Origin: a virus
Strand: one strand, 5' to 3'
Length of the DNA stretch: 35,075 nt
IMG/VR virus record: IMGVR_UViG_3300007734_000618
Location: 1-35,075 of that record
The notes beneath the pieces were generated by a model. The model worked only from the letters and a program-made list of their open reading frames with translations, was not told the origin of the DNA and did no database searches. Below, in pieces: positions 2,295 through 30,960 of this stretch (within the stretch, counting starts at the first letter, position 1; the number at the start of each line of letters is the position of its first letter). The translations under genes and the position numbers were made by a program.

Positions 2295-2572
2295 GCACCA
2301 CCAACGTGAACGAGATGCTGGCCGGACGCCAGGGAACCTATGGCGCGTTCGAGAATCACGCCAAGATTAGCCAGGCGCTCAAGGACGTGATGTTCGAGCG
2401 CTCAGGATGGGACCGGCTCAAGCCAGACCAGCGCGAAGCCCTGGAGATGATCCAGCACAAGATTGCGCGCATCCTCAACGGCGACCCGACCTACGCCGAC
2501 AACTGGATCGACATCGCCGGCTACGCCACCCTGGTGGCCAACCGGCTCGAAAAAGGGGAGAATGACGCATGA
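2291..2572 (+). CDS. DUF6378-like phage protein
   Basis: This 93-residue protein starts at GTG 2291, which overlaps the stop of the preceding gene (GTGA). The pattern of an early G-x-Y-G-x-F-x-x-H-A segment, a central QREALEMI helix, HKIARILNGDP and a final DIAGYATLV resembles the phage family DUF6378, whose biochemical role I do not know. It ends in an ATGA overlap with the methyltransferase gene, suggesting co-expression. The family call is from remembered sequence patterns; function is unknown. Confidence 0.7.
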   Translation: MSTTNVNEMLAGRQGTYGAFENHAKISQALKDVMFERSGWDRLKPDQREALEMIQHKIARILNGDPTYADNWIDIAGYATLVANRLEKGENDA

Positions 2573-3933
2573 CCACGAAATCCCACAAAACCAACCCAGC
2601 CGACAAGGTCGAGCAGTGGCCCATCGAAAAGCTGGTGCCATACGCCAAGAATTCGCGCACCCACAGCGAGGAGCAGGTCGCCCAGATCGCGGCCAGCATC
2701 CGCGAGTGGGGCTTCACAACCGCTGTCCTGGTGGACGAGTCCGGCAGCATCATTGCCGGTCATGGTCGCGTGATGGCAGCTCGAAAACTCGGCATGGCAT
2801 CATTGCCGGTCATGGTCGCGGCAGGCTGGACCGATGCCCAGAAACGTGCCTACGTCATTGCTGACAACAAACTTGCACTCAACGCAGGGTGGGACAACGA
2901 GCTGCTGGCGCTGGAGTTGGCTGAGCTGGATGAAGAAGGATTTGACATCGGCCTGACAGGATTCACCCAGGACGAGATCGACGCACTGACCAAAGTCGAA
3001 GACGCAGAGCAGATCGAATACCAGGGCGATCCAGACGAAGTCCCTGAGATTGGCGAGACGCCAATCAGCGTGCCCGGCGATATCTGGGTGCTCGGCAAGC
3101 ACCGCCTGATGTGCGGTGACAGCACAAACCTGCAGCAGGTGGAAAAGCTGATGGACGGAAAGCTGGCCGATCTGGTCTGGACTGATCCACCATATAACGT
3201 GGCGGTCGAAGGCAAGGCCGGCAAAATCATGAACGACGACATGGGGTCTGGTGAATTCCGAGACTTCCTGCGCAGCGTCTACGCCAGCTACTACGCAGTC
3301 ATGCGAGCTGGCGCAGTGATCTACGTGGCGCACGGTGAATCCGAGCGCGCGGCATTCACAGACTGCATGGTGGAATCTGGACTGAAACTTTCTCAGGTGC
3401 TGATCTGGGTTAAGCAAAGCGCAACCCTGTCACGCCAGGACTTCAACTGGCAGCACGAGCCGATCCTGTACGGCTGGAAGGAAGGCGCTGGCCATTACTT
3501 CTGCGGCAACTTCACACTGACCACGGTGATCGACGATGACGTTGACCTGAAGTCGATGAAGAAGGAGCAGCTCATCGACATGATCAACGAGATCAGGAAC
3601 AAGGCCAGCGGCACGATCATCCGGCACAACCGGCCAACGAAAAGCGATCTGCACCCAACCATGAAGCCGGTGGCGCTGGTGGAGCGCATGATCGAGTGGA
3701 GCAGCAATCCAGGCGAAATCGTTCTGGACCTGTTCGGTGGCAGCGGCAGCACGTTGATCGCAGCACAGAAGGCCAACAGGCAAGCGCGTTTGATGGAACT
3801 GGACCCAAAGTTTGTTGACGTCATCGTCAAGCGCTGGCAGGAGTTCACCGGCAAGCAGGCAATTCACGCAGAAACTGGAAAACCTTTCGCGGAGGTTATG
3901 AATGGCAACGAAATCACAGAAACCCACAATTGA
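2569..3933 (+). CDS. ParB-N domain / DNA methyltransferase fusion
   Basis: This 454-residue fusion has an N-terminal ParB/Srx-fold domain (about residues 10-120, with the signature IIAGHGR at 61-67). A SAM-dependent DNA methyltransferase follows. Its catalytic motif DPPY at 206-209 precedes the SAM-binding FGGSG motif at 389-393, the beta-class order of N6-adenine or N4-cytosine enzymes. No restriction endonuclease is adjacent, so the likely role is protecting phage DNA from host restriction or marking it for replication or packaging. It starts in an ATGA overlap and its 3' end overlaps the next gene by 32 bp. A 24-bp direct repeat in the ParB part (2747-2770, 2797-2820) is read in two different frames. 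Target sequence is unknown. Confidence 0.9.
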   Translation: MTTKSHKTNPADKVEQWPIEKLVPYAKNSRTHSEEQVAQIAASIREWGFTTAVLVDESGSIIAGHGRVMAARKLGMASLPVMVAAGWTDAQKRAYVIADNKLALNAGWDNELLALELAELDEEGFDIGLTGFTQDEIDALTKVEDAEQIEYQGDPDEVPEIGETPISVPGDIWVLGKHRLMCGDSTNLQQVEKLMDGKLADLVWTDPPYNVAVEGKAGKIMNDDMGSGEFRDFLRSVYASYYAVMRAGAVIYVAHGESERAAFTDCMVESGLKLSQVLIWVKQSATLSRQDFNWQHEPILYGWKEGAGHYFCGNFTLTTVIDDDVDLKSMKKEQLIDMINEIRNKASGTIIRHNRPTKSDLHPTMKPVALVERMIEWSSNPGEIVLDLFGGSGSTLIAAQKANRQARLMELDPKFVDVIVKRWQEFTGKQAIHAETGKPFAEVMNGNEITETHN

Positions 3934-25338: not shown

Positions 25339-25364
25339 CGATCAGGACGGCAGGCGCTCGCCTG
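25334..25364. terminator. Convergent-gene hairpins (weak, possibly bidirectional)
   Basis: CCTGA-CGA-TCAGG (25334-25346) holds both facing stop codons in its arms. CAGGCG-CT-CGCCTG (25351-25364) follows inside the end of the leftward gene. Neither is followed by a U-tract, so termination strength is doubtful, but no other structure separates the two converging units. Confidence 0.35.
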
Positions 25365-25539
25365 TCTCAAAGGCCTCGCGGCCGTCCATCGAGTGGTGCA
25401 GCCAGACGCCATCGTCCAGCGTCGGCTTGCACCAGCAACTGCCATTGGCCTCGTGCTCGCGCAGGTCGTTCAGCGGCACCACATGCCAGCCTGCACAGTT
25501 GCAGTCACGGCCCTGGCGACAGTTCTGGTTACAGCTCAT
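25342..25539 (-). CDS. Small Cys-rich conserved phage protein
   Basis: This 65-residue protein has an N-terminal cluster CNQNCRQGRDCNC and later CWCKPTLDDGVWLHHSMDGRE, a pattern seen in short uncharacterised phage proteins. The cysteines and histidines suggest a metal-stabilised fold. Start ATG 25539 is chosen because it forms an ATGA overlap with the upstream stop; a GTG at 25545 is the alternative. It is the last gene of the leftward unit. Confidence 0.7.
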   Translation of the reverse strand: MSCNQNCRQGRDCNCAGWHVVPLNDLREHEANGSCWCKPTLDDGVWLHHSMDGREAFETGERLPS

Positions 25540-25727
25540 CGGCACATCTTCTCACCGTTGTAGGCAGGCCAGCCGGCCTGACCTTTAGTCTGTTTCCACA
25601 GCTTGACCATCTCGCAGTATTCGGCCTCCTGGCGCTCGGCCTCTTCCAGATCGGACTGGCCGACGATGCCCATCGCAATGAACAGGCCAATGGCGGCCAG
25701 GATGACTTGGTAGCGTTTGATCTGCAT
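25536..25727 (-). CDS. Small single-pass membrane protein
   Basis: This 63-residue protein has one N-terminal membrane segment (about residues 6-22, YQVILAAIGLFIAMGIVG) and a charged tail with two Cys (YCEMVKLWKQT, MCR). AGGAG lies a few bases before the ATG. The layout recalls small membrane accessory proteins of phages (superinfection exclusion, lysis control), but no function can be assigned. Confidence 0.65.
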   Translation of the reverse strand: MQIKRYQVILAAIGLFIAMGIVGQSDLEEAERQEAEYCEMVKLWKQTKGQAGWPAYNGEKMCR

Positions 25728-25738
25728 GGTGGTCTCCT

Positions 25739-25918
25739 TCAGTCAGTGATCAGGCAGCCGTTCTCGATGCGCATGAAGCGCATCAGGTCCAGCTCGCGCG
25801 CCACCTCGACGATGTCCTGCTGGGCGCGCTTGGTCATGGCGCAGCGCTGGCAATAGGCCAGGATGCGCGCTGCGGTCTCGAAAGTGGGACCGAGTTCGAT
25901 GGTAGTGGTTGCATTCAC
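25739..25918 (-). CDS. Small hypothetical protein
   Basis: This 59-residue helical protein starts at GTG 25918, preferred because AAGGAG (25930-25925) lies 6 nt upstream; the frame stays open further upstream but has no better site. It shares GPTFET with the 73-residue protein at 31587-31808, hinting at distant relationship. It is the first gene after the promoter at 25953-25983. No function recognised. Confidence 0.6.
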   Translation of the reverse strand: MNATTTIELGPTFETAARILAYCQRCAMTKRAQQDIVEVARELDLMRFMRIENGCLITD

Positions 25919-25952
25919 GGTCAGCTCCTTGCTGGTTGGTTGCGATGACTGC

Positions 25953-25983
25953 ATCTTACCACGATTTCCCACAATCCATGCAA
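25953..25983 (-). promoter_or_regulatory. Leftward promoter for the last three genes
   Basis: On the - strand, TTGCAT (25983-25978) and TAAGAT (25958-25953) are separated by 19 bp, and TGG directly before the -10 makes it an extended -10. ATTGTGGGAAA (25975-25965) lies in the spacer; the same 11-mer occurs at 14909-14919. It would transcribe the genes from 25918 to 25342. Confidence 0.45.
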
Positions 25984-26001
25984 CTAGGTGAAAACACCTA
26001 G
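25984..26001 (-). terminator. Perfect 7-bp hairpin at the end of the upstream gene
   Basis: CTAGGTG-AAAA-CACCTAG is a perfect stem with a 4-nt loop that includes the stop codon of the leftward gene above. No long U-run follows on the - strand, so it may be a weak terminator or an operator next to the promoter it abuts. Confidence 0.4.
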
Positions 26002-26492
26002 ATGATCTCGACATCGTGCGGCCTGGTCCGGCCGTCCAGGATGGCGTGGATGCGCTTCTCGGTCAGGCGGTGGCAGCGATACATTGTCCTGGCCGGCAGC
26101 ACCTCCAGCAGCTCGGCGTAGCTGGCCAGGACGGCGCGCACGGCCTGGATGCCAGGACCGTCCAGTCTGATGGGCTTGCCTTCGCGCTTGTGGCGCTGGC
26201 CAGCCACGGCCAGGGCGCGCACAGCGTCCATCAGCAGGCCGCTGTCGTCGTCGCAGACCTTCATCTCGACCACCAGCGTCTCCAGCATGTTGACGGCGTC
26301 GCTGACCACCCGCCAGTCGTCTGTGCCTGGCTGATCTGCCGTCTCCAGGCTGTGCAGCCCCTCGTACATCCTGGTGAGCTGGTGCGTGCGGTACTCGGCC
26401 GGCATCGGCTCGGTGGGGCTGGCCAGCAGCTCGTCGAAGACGGTGTAGGTCTTCGGGCGCTGCGGCGGCTTACGCTTTCCTGACTTCCTCAT
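25998..26492 (-). CDS. Hypothetical helical phage protein
   Basis: This 164-residue protein has a basic N-terminus (KSGKRKPPQRPKTYTVFDELL) and a helical middle with a TMYRCHRLTEKRIHAILDG ending typical of small phage early proteins. Start ATG 26492 overlaps the previous stop (ATGA); the frame is open upstream but that stretch belongs to the neighbouring gene. No domain is recognised. Confidence 0.7.
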   Translation of the reverse strand: MRKSGKRKPPQRPKTYTVFDELLASPTEPMPAEYRTHQLTRMYEGLHSLETADQPGTDDWRVVSDAVNMLETLVVEMKVCDDDSGLLMDAVRALAVAGQRHKREGKPIRLDGPGIQAVRAVLASYAELLEVLPARTMYRCHRLTEKRIHAILDGRTRPHDVEII

Positions 26493-26659
26493 GCTCGCAC
26501 ATCCACCAGGCTGATGGCCTTGGTCTCGCGGTCCATGAACACGGCCACGGCGGTGGGCATCGGACCACCCATCGCACCACACACAGCGATGCAGATGGGC
26601 GTCGGCCGCAGAAACGCCAGCAGCATGTAGCGCTTGTCGTTCGGGCTGTCTGCGGCCAT
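26489..26659 (-). CDS. Small hypothetical protein
   Basis: This 56-residue protein has a short N-terminal charged part and two hydrophobic stretches (RPTPICIAVCGAMGG, PTAVAVFMD), most likely buried beta-strands. Its ATG at 26659 shares a base with the stop of the 43-residue gene upstream, and GAGG lies about 9 nt before it. It is part of the overlapping chain of tiny genes. Function unknown. Confidence 0.6.
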   Translation of the reverse strand: MAADSPNDKRYMLLAFLRPTPICIAVCGAMGGPMPTAVAVFMDRETKAISLVDVRA

Positions 26660-26790
26660 CAGTACGTCCTCCAGACCTCGATCTCGACGATCCACAGGTA
26701 CAGATGGAACTCGCCACGGTCGAAGCCGATGGCGAAGTACGGCCAGCGACGTGGGAACCATTGCACAGAGATGCGTGGGCGCAGCTTCAT
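26659..26790 (-). CDS. 43-residue aromatic-rich protein
   Basis: This frame, too short for usual gene-calling cut-offs, runs from ATG 26790 (in an ATGA overlap with the RHH gene) to a TGA overlapping the next ATG. The peptide has four Trp, several Phe/Tyr and many Arg (RPRISVQWFPRRWPYFAIGF, then WIVEIEVW) and looks like a small beta-hairpin fold. Tight overlaps on both sides make it a real gene with good likelihood. Role unknown. Confidence 0.65.
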   Translation of the reverse strand: MKLRPRISVQWFPRRWPYFAIGFDRGEFHLYLWIVEIEVWRTY

Positions 26791-26978
26791 GTGGTGGCCT
26801 CCTGCTGCTGGCTGGTCAGCCCCTGCTTGATGTAGTGCAGCACCTGGGCGGCCAGCGTCCTGGTGTCTGCCTCGGCCTGGCGGCGCAGCGCCAGCTCGAC
26901 ATCTGCCGGAATGCGGATCGTCATGTAGCGATCCTTGGTGGCAGACGCCGACGACTTGGAGGTGGTCGGCGCGTCCAT
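26787..26978 (-). CDS. Ribbon-helix-helix (Arc-like) DNA-binding protein
   Basis: This 63-residue protein has a polar N-terminal tail, then DRYMTIRIPADVELALRRQA (about 16-35) and a second helix about 38-53. That is the strand-helix-helix layout of RHH repressors, which bind DNA as dimers through the strand. It is embedded in the accessory cluster between the Tad2-like and tiny genes, so it may regulate that cluster. Overlaps on both sides indicate coupling. Confidence 0.75.
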   Translation of the reverse strand: MDAPTTSKSSASATKDRYMTIRIPADVELALRRQAEADTRTLAAQVLHYIKQGLTSQQQEATT

Positions 26979-27367
26979 CAGATCACCACCTTCCAGTCCT
27001 CGGCCAGCATGTCAGTCTGACTGGCCAACCACGGCACGCGCGCGCCAGGCGTGTTCTGGGCATCTGCCGGATAGTTCAGGAACACATAAGGCAGCGTCAT
27101 CTTGCTGTGCTCGTCAGGGCGCTGAAGCTCCAGCCACATGCCTTTGCCATTCCAGCCTGCTCGGCACACATGCATGCCTTTTTTCAGGCATTCGAGCGCC
27201 AGGCCAAAGGTCATGGCATCGCACTCGCGATAGGCGTCGTCGAATGCCTCCTGTGGCGACCAGGACTCATAGCCATCGGCGTAGCGCACGCGATAGCCTT
27301 CGCGGCCGGACTCGCTGTGCTTCTCTGGCACAGCGTGGATGATCTTGGTTCCGATGTAGCGTTTCAT
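26978..27367 (-). CDS. Tad2-type (DUF2829) protein, candidate anti-Thoeris sponge
   Basis: This 129-residue protein has an N-terminal extension (about 1-50: RYIGTKIIHA, YRVRYADGYESWSPQEAFDDAY) and a DUF2829 domain from 52. The latter shows MTFGLALECLKKG, RAGWNGKGMWL (69-79) and the hallmark PWLASQTDMLAEDW (112-125). Family members called Tad2 bind the cyclic ADP-ribose-type signal made by Thoeris and so block that abortive defence. Start ATG 27367 overlaps the previous stop. The family call is strong; activity, and whether the extension alters it, is inferred. Confidence 0.85.
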   Translation of the reverse strand: MKRYIGTKIIHAVPEKHSESGREGYRVRYADGYESWSPQEAFDDAYRECDAMTFGLALECLKKGMHVCRAGWNGKGMWLELQRPDEHSKMTLPYVFLNYPADAQNTPGARVPWLASQTDMLAEDWKVVI

Positions 27368-27609
27368 CAATCAGTCCCTCCAGGGTTGGTGATGGCAGCT
27401 TCCTCGAACATGTCAGCCGTGGCCTGGCCGGTGGCCAGTTCGACAGGGATGCCGTGGGTCAGCAGGCTGACCAGGTCGTCCTGGCCGGCGACTTCGATGT
27501 CGAACCTGGTCGAGGCGGCGTACTTGATCGCCTGGGCCTGGTTGGAAGCCCGGATCAGGCGGTGCTTGTTGGTCTCGGTGTCGGTCACCAAGTAGATGCG
27601 TGTGGTCAT
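27367..27609 (-). CDS. Small conserved phage early protein
   Basis: This 80-residue protein begins TRIYLVTDTETNKHRLIRAS and continues NQAQAIKYAA, a pattern common among short phage proteins of unknown role that sit in accessory early clusters. It is alpha/beta and lacks Cys, signal or membrane segments. It lies between the Acb2-like and Tad2-like genes and may share their expression. Confidence 0.68.
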   Translation of the reverse strand: MTTRIYLVTDTETNKHRLIRASNQAQAIKYAASTRFDIEVAGQDDLVSLLTHGIPVELATGQATADMFEEAAITNPGGTD

Positions 27610-27618
27610 GGTGGTCTT

Positions 27619-27858
27619 TCAGAATTTCCAGGTGGCTGCTTTGACTGCCCACATCTGGCCGGCCTGGATGTCAGTAATGGCCACGCTTGCCATGCGCGCG
27701 ATATCCGAGTTCGGCTGATTGGTGCGCAGCTCATGAATCTCGTCAATCAGGTCAGCGCACTTGCGCTTGATGGCATCGACGGTCGGATCGTTGCTGGGAT
27801 TGAATGTCAGGCCGACAGCTTTCTCGCCGAAGGTCATTTCGCGCTGTACTTCACTCAT
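27619..27858 (-). CDS. Acb2/Tad1 hairpin-domain protein, candidate cyclic-nucleotide sponge
   Basis: This 79-residue, two-helix protein has the pattern TFGEKAVGLTFNPS (9-22), a first helix ending DEIHELR and a second ARMASVAITDIQAGQMWAVKAATW. I associate this with the phage family now called Acb2/Tad1 hairpin (DUF7681). Characterised Acb2 proteins soak up CBASS cyclic oligonucleotides; Tad1 proteins soak up Thoeris signals. Start ATG 27858 overlaps the nuclease stop (ATGA), with AAGGAA upstream. Family membership is from memory of sequence patterns; ligand is unknown. Confidence 0.7.
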   Translation of the reverse strand: MSEVQREMTFGEKAVGLTFNPSNDPTVDAIKRKCADLIDEIHELRTNQPNSDIARMASVAITDIQAGQMWAVKAATWKF

Positions 27859-28217
27859 GGGATTTCCTTGTTGGTTGATGAAAAGGCGCGGATCAGCTCC
27901 TTGGCAGATTCCGCACCTTTTCCCACTATAACGCAATATCCCACACTTTCCAAGTATGCGATCCAGTCCTTCTGCTCTGGGCTGAGGCTGCCACCCTTGG
28001 CGCGCTTCATCTCGACCCACAGACGCCAGGCAGGCACGAACAGGTCCGGCACGCCAGAGGCCACGCCTTCGGCCTTCAGGCGGCCGGCTGTGGCCTTGCT
28101 GCGCGCGCCACCGTTGGGGATGGCATGGATGCGCACGCCTGGCCAGGTCTGGCGAAACCAGCGCACCAGCTCGCGCTGCTCTTCGTGCTCTGTTGGGATG
28201 CGGTCTGGCGTGCTCAA
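27855..28217 (-). CDS. VRR-NUC family nuclease
   Basis: This 120-residue PD-(D/E)XK-fold nuclease has the VRR-NUC pattern: IPNGGARSKATAGRLKAEG (33-51), catalytic D58 in GVPDLF, E69-x-K71 in WVEMKR and Q82 in SPEQKDW. Members cut branched or flapped DNA, for example as Holliday-junction resolvases. The start is taken as TTG 28217: AGGAG lies 8 nt upstream and the codon overlaps the previous stop. Near its end, bases 27925-27953 use rarer, AT-rich codons that coincide with a promoter-like element. Confidence 0.85.
   Translation of the reverse strand: MSTPDRIPTEHEEQRELVRWFRQTWPGVRIHAIPNGGARSKATAGRLKAEGVASGVPDLFVPAWRLWVEMKRAKGGSLSPEQKDWIAYLESVGYCVIVGKGAESAKELIRAFSSTNKEIP
27925..27953 (-). promoter_or_regulatory. 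Promoter-like element inside the VRR-NUC gene
   Basis: On the - strand, TTGGAA (27953-27948), a 17-bp spacer and TATAGT (27930-27925) fit a sigma70 promoter. Transcription would start near 27918, about 50 nt before the ribosome site of the Acb2-like gene. The overlapped codons (AGT, GGA, ATA) are unusual for this GC-rich gene. GTGGGA occurs twice here. Confidence 0.45.
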
Positions 28218-28411
28218 AATGGCAGCTCCTGTTCCCACTTGTCGCAGGCATCCAGCGTGGCGGCGAAGTCCTCTGGCGGCTTCATGAAGAACTCGACGCA
28301 CAGGCCGTCCACACCGTAGTGCTCGCAGGTGTGGCAGCACTTGGGCGGCCCGGCGCGCATCCACTCACGCCACTGGATCAGGAACTCTGGCTCTGGTGGT
28401 CTGGTGCTCAT
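28214..28411 (-). CDS. Small Cys-rich (zinc-finger-like) protein
   Basis: This 65-residue protein has CCHTCEHYGVDGLCVEFFMK (about 25-44) plus a later Cys (DACDKW), a spacing suited to a zinc site and familiar from short phage proteins of unknown role. Its ATG overlaps the stop of the HslV-like gene and its stop overlaps the nuclease start, so the three are tightly coupled. Confidence 0.7.
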   Translation of the reverse strand: MSTRPPEPEFLIQWREWMRAGPPKCCHTCEHYGVDGLCVEFFMKPPEDFAATLDACDKWEQELPF

Positions 28412-28857: not shown

Positions 28858-28946
28858 GTGTTCTGACCTCCAAATTCACCCAAGCATTTTTTGCAGACGA
28901 TCAGTCCGCGCATCGCTCTGCGATATCCACAATGCTCACATATCAT
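28854..28946 (-). CDS. 30-residue zinc-ribbon peptide
   Basis: A very short frame from ATG 28946 has AAGGAG (28958-28953) 6 nt upstream and ends in an ATGA overlap with the HslV-like gene. Its own ATG overlaps the stop of the sigma-like gene. The peptide holds C3-x2-C6 and C18-x2-C21, a complete four-cysteine zinc ribbon. Perfect ribosome site, overlaps at both ends and the intact motif make it a convincing gene. It may be a tiny transcription or translation modulator. Confidence 0.72.
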   Translation of the reverse strand: MICEHCGYRRAMRGLIVCKKCLGEFGGQNT

Positions 28947-29371
28947 TTGCTTCTCCTTTGTTCATGCTTCCACCAAAACCAGGGAATCACCCTGTCGTCT
29001 ACTTCCCACATCGGCACGCCAGTCAGCTCTGACTGGTGCTTGCGAAACCTGCGCATCGCCTTCATCAGAATCTGGCGCACACGTTCCTGCGTGCGGCCCA
29101 TCACCTCGCCTGCCTCGCGCAGCGTGTGGTTGTCCAACACGCACAAGATGACCACCTGCTCCTCCTGCTCTGTCAGCGGCGTGATGGCCACCAGGCGGCG
29201 CGCAAAGTCCTGCCTGATCCACAGATCAGGATCGGTCTGAGTCGGCCACCAGGAATCAATCGGCTCGCATGGCTCTGGCTCGATGTGGCGGCTGTACCAG
29301 ATGGCCTTGACCTCGCTAGACAGGCTGGCCACACCCAGCTTGCCATAGTGCGGAAGGGCGCGGCCTCTCAC
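28943..29371 (-). CDS. Sigma-70 region 4-like regulator
   Basis: This 142-residue protein contains, at about 63-111, LTEQEEQVVILCVLDNHTLREAGEVMGRTQERVRQILMKAMRRF, a full sigma region-4 helix-turn-helix that reads -35 DNA. Regions 2 and 3 are absent, and flanks are Trp-rich. It may act as a phage activator or a sigma appropriator that redirects host RNA polymerase to middle or late promoters. Start GTG 29371 has GGAGG 5 nt upstream and overlaps the helicase stop; GTG 29377 is the alternative. Confidence 0.78.
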   Translation of the reverse strand: MRGRALPHYGKLGVASLSSEVKAIWYSRHIEPEPCEPIDSWWPTQTDPDLWIRQDFARRLVAITPLTEQEEQVVILCVLDNHTLREAGEVMGRTQERVRQILMKAMRRFRKHQSELTGVPMWEVDDRVIPWFWWKHEQRRSK

Positions 29372-30960
29372 TCCCACCTCCGGCGCATCACTCTGAAAAA
29401 CTTGCCATCGCGCTTGAACTCGATGCTGCGCGGTGGCTGCGTCTGGTTGAGGTTGGCGACCATCTCCTCCAGCGTCTGGACGTTCAGGCCGCCTGGTGCG
29501 ATCTGGCCACGCTCGGCCATTGTCACGAGCTGCTGCATGGCCTTCTGGCCAGCATATCCCTCGTGCATGATCGGCAGGTACTCGGTGATGGCCGGATCGC
29601 TCAGGCCACCGTAGTAGGTGACGGCGATCATCTCCTTGCCACTGGCGCGGCTGACGTGCTTGCGCCAGGTCCAGCCGGTGACATCGAGATCGATGCCTTC
29701 CAGGCCCATGATGTCGTCCTGGCGCAGCTCCAGCTTGCGCTTCTCAGGCTCAGGGAATGCGTGGCCACAGGCCGAGCACACGCGCGCTGCAATGGCGCAC
29801 AGCTCGCCACAGTTATCGCAGACCTTCACTGGTGCCTCGCCATTGCCTTCTCCGGCCTTCTTGGGCGGCTGCACGGCCGTGATCGGCCCATGCGTGGCCA
29901 CCACGCCAGCGAAGTCCAGCACCAGGCAGTGGTCGGTGTGGCTCTTGACCCGCATGCCGCGGCCTGCCATCTGCACATAGAGGCTCGCGCTCATGGTCGG
30001 ACGCAGCATGGCGATCAGGTCGATGTCAGGGTAGTCGAAGCCGGTGGTCAGCACGTTGGCATTGGTCAGGGCGCGCAGCCGGCCGGCCTTGAAGTCAGCC
30101 AGGAGCTGCTCGCGCTCCTTCTTGGGCGTCTCGCCAGTCACGCAGGCCGCAGGGATGCCGTGGATGGTGCTCAAGACGAAGGTTACGTTCTCGGCGTGCT
30201 TGACACCAGCGCAGAAGAACAGCCAGGCCTTGCGCTCGCCGGCCAGCTCGATCACCTCCTGCACCACGGCCAAGTTGTTGGCGTCGGTGTTCACGGCCGC
30301 CTGCAGCTCGGCCTCGATGAACTCACCGCCACGCTTGTGGACGCCAGAGGTGTCCAGCTTGGCCTTGGTGACCTTGCTGCGCAGCGGTGCCAGGTAGTTC
30401 TTGAAGACCAGCTCCTCGATGCTGACCGGCTCGATCAGGTCGTCGAACAGTGCCGGCTTGTCAGTGATCAAGCCGTGGCCAAGGCGGTAGGGCGTGGCCG
30501 TCAGGCCCACCACCCGCAGCGCAGGGTTGATGGCCTTCAGCTCGCCAAGCAGCTTGCGGTATCCACCCTCGTCCTTGTGGTTGACCAGGTGGCACTCGTC
30601 GATGATCACCAGGTCAATGTGGCCCAGCTCGCGCGCCTTGCTGCGCACCGACTGGATGCCGGCGAAGGTGATCGGCTCGCCGAGCTGCTTCTTGCCGATG
30701 CTGGCGCTGTAGATGCCCATCGGCGCGCCTGGCCAGTGCAGGCGCATCTTCTCAGCGTTCTGCTCGATCAGCTCCTTGACGTGCGTTAGCATCAGCACGC
30801 GCGTCTCTGGCCAGTTCTGCAAGGCGTCCTTGCACAGGGCGGCGACGATGTGGCTCTTGCCGGAGCCGGTTGGCAGCACCAGGCATGGGTTGCCTCGGCC
30901 ACCAGCCTCGAACCATGCGTAGAGCACGTCGATGGCGCGCTGTTGGTACTCACGCAGCAT
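29368..30960 (-). CDS. DEAH-box superfamily 2 helicase with zinc ribbon
   Basis: This 530-residue ATPase has Walker A TGSGKS (31-36), DECH (121-124), motif III LTATP (153-157) and motif VI QMAGRGMR (330-337). The usual SF2 lobe pair is followed by a four-Cys zinc ribbon (C381, C384, C395, C398) and an extra C-terminal domain. Res/SSL2-like phage helicases of this size act in replication or recombination, possibly replication-fork restart with the nearby nucleases. It overlaps the gene upstream by 11 bp. Confidence 0.9.
   Translation of the reverse strand: MLREYQQRAIDVLYAWFEAGGRGNPCLVLPTGSGKSHIVAALCKDALQNWPETRVLMLTHVKELIEQNAEKMRLHWPGAPMGIYSASIGKKQLGEPITFAGIQSVRSKARELGHIDLVIIDECHLVNHKDEGGYRKLLGELKAINPALRVVGLTATPYRLGHGLITDKPALFDDLIEPVSIEELVFKNYLAPLRSKVTKAKLDTSGVHKRGGEFIEAELQAAVNTDANNLAVVQEVIELAGERKAWLFFCAGVKHAENVTFVLSTIHGIPAACVTGETPKKEREQLLADFKAGRLRALTNANVLTTGFDYPDIDLIAMLRPTMSASLYVQMAGRGMRVKSHTDHCLVLDFAGVVATHGPITAVQPPKKAGEGNGEAPVKVCDNCGELCAIAARVCSACGHAFPEPEKRKLELRQDDIMGLEGIDLDVTGWTWRKHVSRASGKEMIAVTYYGGLSDPAITEYLPIMHEGYAGQKAMQQLVTMAERGQIAPGGLNVQTLEEMVANLNQTQPPRSIEFKRDGKFFRVMRRRWE

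Follow-up and report, generated by a model that had tools for sequence, protein, structure and literature searches.

Adjacent genes for predicted Acb2-type and Tad2 signal sponges in a modular phage operon

Results

Gene content and layout of the operon

The window, i.e. the whole 35-kb virus contig analysed here (IMG/VR record IMGVR_UViG_3300007734_000618, positions 1 to 35,075), has the uncultured tailed phage MW202867 as its closest annotated relative (nucleotide identity ~75% across 61% of the 6 kb used as query). A minus-strand operon encodes a helicase, a sigma-70 region-4 protein, a 149-aa protein, a 65-aa Cys-containing protein, a VRR-NUC-domain nuclease, an Acb2-type protein, ORF80, a Tad2-family protein and a ribbon-helix-helix-like (RHH) protein. 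From VRR-NUC through RHH the genes are tightly packed: the VRR-NUC stop and the Acb2 start overlap in ATGA, nine bases separate Acb2 from ORF80, and the ORF80|Tad2 and Tad2|RHH overlaps are TGATG each. The sequence-only reading had placed two adjacent small sponge-family genes here, and both open reading frames are present on the minus strand (27619-27858 and 26978-27367) with ORF80 alone between them; with both exceeding curated Pfam cut-offs, the observation goes beyond chance. The sequences that it quoted are also found, TFGEKAVGLTFNPS and MWAVKAATW in 27619-27858 and PWLASQTDMLAEDW in 26978-27370.

The flanking genes, all on the minus strand, delimit the two sponge genes. ORF80 (27367-27609), a conserved backbone gene of the phage group that is kept with or without Acb2 and Tad2 in sister loci, separates the two insertion points; no family match was found for it in Pfam, PADLOC and NCBIfam searches, and PADLOC and NCBIfam returned nothing relevant for the locus. 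The upstream boundary of the Acb2 insertion is the VRR-NUC-domain protein (27855-28217; PF08774, 27.6 bits), which is Holliday-junction-resolvase-like, and the downstream boundary of the Tad2 insertion is the small RHH-like protein (26787-26978), with a weak RHH_5 match below the cut-off that a sister-group relative passes. The 65-aa Cys-containing protein (28214-28411) is a backbone gene outside the sponge cassettes, found in almost every sister locus whether or not the sponges are there. The sigma-70 region-4 protein (28946-29377, minus strand; PF04545, 45.4 bits) is possibly a phage-encoded transcription factor. Elsewhere in the window (2569-3933, plus strand), a 454-aa protein joins a ParB-like N-terminal part to a DNA methyltransferase (phrog_498).

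The Acb2-type protein

The 79-aa protein encoded at 27619-27858 matches the Pfam model PF24729 (Acb2_Tad1_hairpin) with 43.5 bits against a curated cut-off of 27; T4 Vs.4, an experimentally characterised Acb2, scores 71.4 bits on the same model. The sequence has an N-terminal FGEKAVGLTFNPS followed by a helical hairpin finishing in QMWAVKAATW. The predicted model (mean pLDDT 92.8) contains helices at residues 10-14, 25-46 and 51-75 and no strands, which is the published topology of Acb2, a short N-terminal helix and two long antiparallel helices (PMC12043709, PMC10419184). The hallmark of Tad1, an N-terminal antiparallel beta-sheet ahead of the hairpin, is absent from the model. The earlier assignment to the Acb2/Tad1 hairpin family thus holds at the level of the Pfam model and predicted topology, and as modelled the protein is Acb2-type and not Tad1-type. 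The C-terminal helix aligns gap-free to T4 Acb2, with T68 of T4 falling on T62, a nearly invariant residue within TIAKTKLKEASMWACRAV / SVAITDIQAGQMWAVKAA; T68M reduces binding by T4 Acb2 (PMC12657230). The counterpart of the essential T4 Y8, which gives the published binding-deficient mutant Y8A (PMC12657230), is perhaps F19, in an alignment made uncertain by an N-terminal motif that differs from T4.

When the Acb2 family profile was searched against PDB sequences, no Acb2/Tad1 chain came up, only chance helical matches. The structure comparison proposed by the sequence-only reading gave a mixed outcome for this protein, the predicted topology agreeing with published Acb2 and the Foldseek match to T4 Vs.4 lying below significance (ranks 3 and 13, E 2.7-3.7, TM 0.40 at rank 3), with hairpins of low specificity in such searches; the fold likeness to T4 Acb2 is only suggestive. 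As neither kind of direct PDB search reached significance, the assignment to Acb2 is based on the curated profile, the topology and the motif. The window protein shares with known Acb2 (T4 Vs.4 and the Acb2 of Pseudomonas phage PaMx33/PaP2) the Pfam model, the size, the helix topology, the C-terminal-helix MWA(K/R)A motif and T62; it differs from T4 Acb2 in its low identity, in an N-terminal motif not seen in T4 and in the non-significant fold search.

We consider it unlikely that the protein shares the hairpin shape alone and has another role, e.g. as a small oligomeric scaffold or regulator, which would leave Tad2 as the sole counter-defence. Such a role would suit the failure of sequence and fold searches to reach significance against solved Acb2/Tad1, the distinct invariant N-terminal motif G-x3-VG-x2-FNPS and the location of the gene in some phages near terminase genes, not early genes, but the curated Pfam match in common with T4 Acb2, the conservation of the C-terminal MWA-K/R-A motif and T62, and the repeated occurrence of the gene beside RyR or Tad2 genes favour an Acb2-type protein. 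The gene is under strong purifying selection, with dN about 0.02-0.085 against dS 0.14-1.6.

The Tad2 protein

The 129-aa protein encoded at 26978-27367 matches PF11195 (DUF2829) with 81.6 bits against a curated cut-off of 25, over profile positions 1-73 of 73. The preferred start is the ATG at 27367, in a TGATG overlap with the ORF80 stop, rather than the TTG at 27370. The protein consists of an N-terminal MKRYIGTK beta domain (aa 1-51) and a short-loop Tad2 domain (aa 52-129, 78 aa). Chains of the SPO1, Spt, Myroides and Hgm Tad2 structures are matched both by sequence and by fold, and all 24 PDB matches of the monomer model (mean pLDDT 88) at E<=1e-3 are Tad2/AcrIIA7, so the Tad2-like assignment made earlier is firm. 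Strong purifying selection is also evident for this gene (dN 0.007-0.042 against dS 0.19-1.0); for both genes dN/dS is about 0.03-0.13 in aligned pairs, with one misaligned row (L051) left out.

The window protein resembles known Tad2 (SPO1 Gp34.65, ModTad2, HgmTad2/AcrIIA7 and SptTad2) over the full-length domain by sequence and predicted fold, and unlike them adds the N-terminal beta domain. This domain (MKRYIGTK...SWSP) corresponds to phrog_872, had no PDB sequence match and no Pfam match, and also matches the first part of non-Tad2 PHROG families (phrog_9467 and phrog_32732). The Tad2 domain has ~78 aa compared with 101-104 aa in SptTad2 and HgmTad2, and the alignments gap at their long insertion, which is missing from the window Tad2; SPO1 Tad2 and ModTad2 have a short loop as well. 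The long loop insertion has been tied to cyclic-dinucleotide binding (PMC12043709), and SPO1 Tad2 does not bind 3'3'-cGAMP (PMC11722364). Given the missing insertion and the lack of 3'3'-cGAMP binding by SPO1 Tad2, we predict that the window Tad2 binds ADPR-type ligands only.

Two other readings of this protein were weighed. One, to which we give a minor share of the probability, is that it mainly targets a different signal, such as the type II Thoeris signal His-ADPR, or that the MKRYIGTK domain adds a second ligand. ModTad2, a fold match to the window domain, was solved with His-ADPR, and the N-terminal beta domain is without a solved relative by sequence and matches only the first portion of other PHROG families; the Tad2 domain, however, matches both SPO1 Tad2 (gcADPR) and ModTad2, and sequence cannot tell the ligand class. 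The other, that the protein is an AcrIIA7-type anti-CRISPR, is very improbable: AcrIIA7 belongs to the same family in the PDB, but its entries include cADPR and cGG structures, one of them labelled HgmTad2, and RyR replaces the Tad2 gene at the same slot.

Gene-precise insertion in sister loci

Three IMG/VR scans yielded 215 loci, and junctions were counted in the 69 distinct loci with the anchor, ORF80 and RHH all in range. Of these, 42 have no gene at the ORF80|RHH junction; the others carry Tad2 (17), a RyR-domain protein (five, one of which also has an RNase-H-like gene), a protein of the u4 family (four) or an RNase-H-like gene alone (one). Tad2 and RyR never occur together (0/69), and Acb2 lies upstream of ORF80 in 8/69 loci. 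The flanks of empty junctions read ...GACTGA[C/T]-TGATGGACGCG, and in filled junctions the whole Tad2 gene splits them between two TGATG overlaps. Junction comparison places Acb2 between VRR-NUC and ORF80 in the same gene-precise manner. As read from these junctions, Acb2 and Tad2 are gene-precise insertions into stop/start overlaps of a conserved operon. The RNase-H-like small protein (phrog_2259; L022:5830-6264, also in L019 and L020) occurs in the slot alone or behind RyR. An HNH endonuclease (PF13392), possibly a homing element, is inserted near the sponge slot, close to the VRR-NUC gene, in L102 and about eight more sister loci.

The overlap or close packing of these genes within the operon, and the recurrence of the Acb2-ORF80 order in a second phage lineage, could be taken to indicate that Acb2, ORF80 and Tad2 form a single functional three-gene unit. 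This is largely refuted, and we regard it as most improbable, as 41 distinct loci have ORF80 but no sponge, and each of the two sponges is also found in the absence of the other. The same loci bear on the proposal of the sequence-only reading that the neighbouring small genes (25342-27609 and 28214-28411) are anti-defence candidates by association. These genes are equally present in sister phages without either sponge, and as candidates ORF80, VRR-NUC, the Cys protein and RHH were rejected as backbone, also found in the 41 loci lacking both sponges; the argument from association fails since the flanking genes are present whether or not the sponges are. The informative neighbours are instead RyR and u4, which stand in place of Tad2 in sister phages and are absent from the window.

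In the second lineage (L016), a different, longer Tad2 occupies the same slot beside Acb2 and ORF80, and the combination has therefore arisen more than once. Two further loci have Acb2 and Tad2 adjacent or near: in L178 Tad2 directly overlaps Acb2, and in L214 the order is Tad2, a gp49 relative and then Acb2, in a different genomic context. A conserved Acb2 and Tad2 pair was considered and rejected, with Tad2 in 2/43 other Acb2 contigs and Acb2 in 3/50 contigs of the Tad2/ORF80 set. Joint carriage is uncommon in these whole-contig checks, and the window is an unusual, not a unique, double.

RyR proteins as alternative occupants

The slot occupant in sister locus L018 is a PF02026 protein (42.1 bits, cut-off 27.4), and at the slot position MW202867 carries a gene with the annotation 'ryr domain'. 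Both 2'cADPR and 3'cADPR are targets of phage RyR-domain proteins (PF02026, RyDEP), which cleave or sequester them (PMC13232231, a 2026 preprint). In sister phages the place of Tad2 is thus taken by RyDEP, which is not in the window and has an unrelated fold but the same target signals. Because unrelated folds against the same signals swap at one junction, the exchange provides independent support for the Tad2 function.

Outside the phage group of the window, Acb2 lies near RyR in 10/67 RyR loci (seven non-redundant phages, mostly immediately adjacent) against 0/77 u4 loci (Fisher p 0.0003; 0.0025 de-duplicated), the u4 loci being a rough comparison and not a full null model. The Acb2-type gene is next to the RyR-domain gene, usually adjacent, in L320, L332, L334, L336, L313, L326 and L341, none of these phages being related to that of the window. 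In L384:2593-3339 a gp49/Sf6 gene 66 domain (PF13876) is fused to a RyR domain, and this gene overlaps a stand-alone Tad2 at 3330-3602.

The u4 family

The u4 protein (phrog_419/4502/1810; for example L002:5677-6048), characterised by the pattern MKxRKKPVVIEA...PGDWIITGVKGE.YPCKPDIFAATYEP, has matches in 856 of 50,697 phage records, and no function is assigned to these PHROG families. In single-ORF fusions u4 is N-terminal to a Tad2 domain (L264:2992-3657, L265:2956-3645 and L282:2992-3657; two or three distinct proteins), and Latilactobacillus phage TMW 1.2272 P1 (OQ240260, 13702-14241) encodes a possible full-length relative of the fusion. On the grounds of the Tad2/RyR swap, the Acb2-RyR adjacency and the u4-Tad2 fusions, we tentatively suggest that the ORF80|RHH slot may be dedicated to ADP-ribose-signal antagonists, sometimes with Acb2 upstream, and that u4 could be a so far unrecognised sponge or enzyme that acts on nucleotide immune signals, whether TIR-derived or of another kind.

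Host setting

One Limnohabitans MAG contig carries an Acb2 86% identical to that of the window, and a weak ORF80 relative is found in Limnohabitans phage DC33 (PQ492659, L224). Sequence similarity thus points weakly to a Limnohabitans-like freshwater Burkholderiales host. In 60 genomes of this only suggested host group, CBASS and Thoeris markers are rare, with SMODS over the cut-off in 2/60 and ThsA STALD in 1/60, a point against the counter-defence reading. Phage DC33 is filed as Inoviridae, yet at 39 kb and with an L-alanyl-D-glutamate peptidase its genome resembles that of a tailed phage.

Discussion

Profile-level family membership, predicted folds, gene-precise insertion, alternative occupants and purifying selection are established here for the two genes of the window, which are additional members of known sponge families within a modular slot. 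The probable explanation is that the operon carries two independent counter-defence cassettes, Acb2-type and Tad2, with predicted sponge functions, and that the Tad2 slot is shared by alternative antagonists of ADPR signals. Oligomerisation, the ligands and the anti-CBASS and anti-Thoeris effects are what we infer beyond this. The Acb2-type protein would most likely be an oligomer sequestering the cyclic di- and trinucleotide alarm signals of CBASS and related systems, and Tad2 most likely a tetramer sequestering the ADP-ribose-derived signals of TIR enzymes (Thoeris); sequestration is the likely mechanism for both. The joint blunting of CBASS and Thoeris raised by the sequence-only reading could follow from the known families. 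As the Tad2 domain is without the long insertion associated with binding of cyclic dinucleotides, the two sponges are expected to be complementary, not redundant. Both genes are inserted precisely at stop/start overlaps, so that phages would gain and lose the sponges one at a time.

Several nucleotide-signal antagonists in one phage are also known for SPO1 (Tad2 and Acb4) and T4 (Acb1 and Acb2). Those combinations are known at genome level, whereas the antagonist genes of the window are near neighbours within one operon.

Counter-signalling in these phages is modular: two sponges with different predicted ligands lie in one operon, and Tad2 and RyR are interchangeable among close phages. Many sister phages are sponge-free, a pattern that would be compatible with sponges being costly, for instance by activating Panoptes (PMC12657218, PMC12657230). 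The slot is also a discovery tool, since its alternative occupants are directed at one known class of target: it nominates u4, a very common phage family, as a candidate antagonist of Thoeris signals. Sister phages with and without each sponge offer a natural comparison set.
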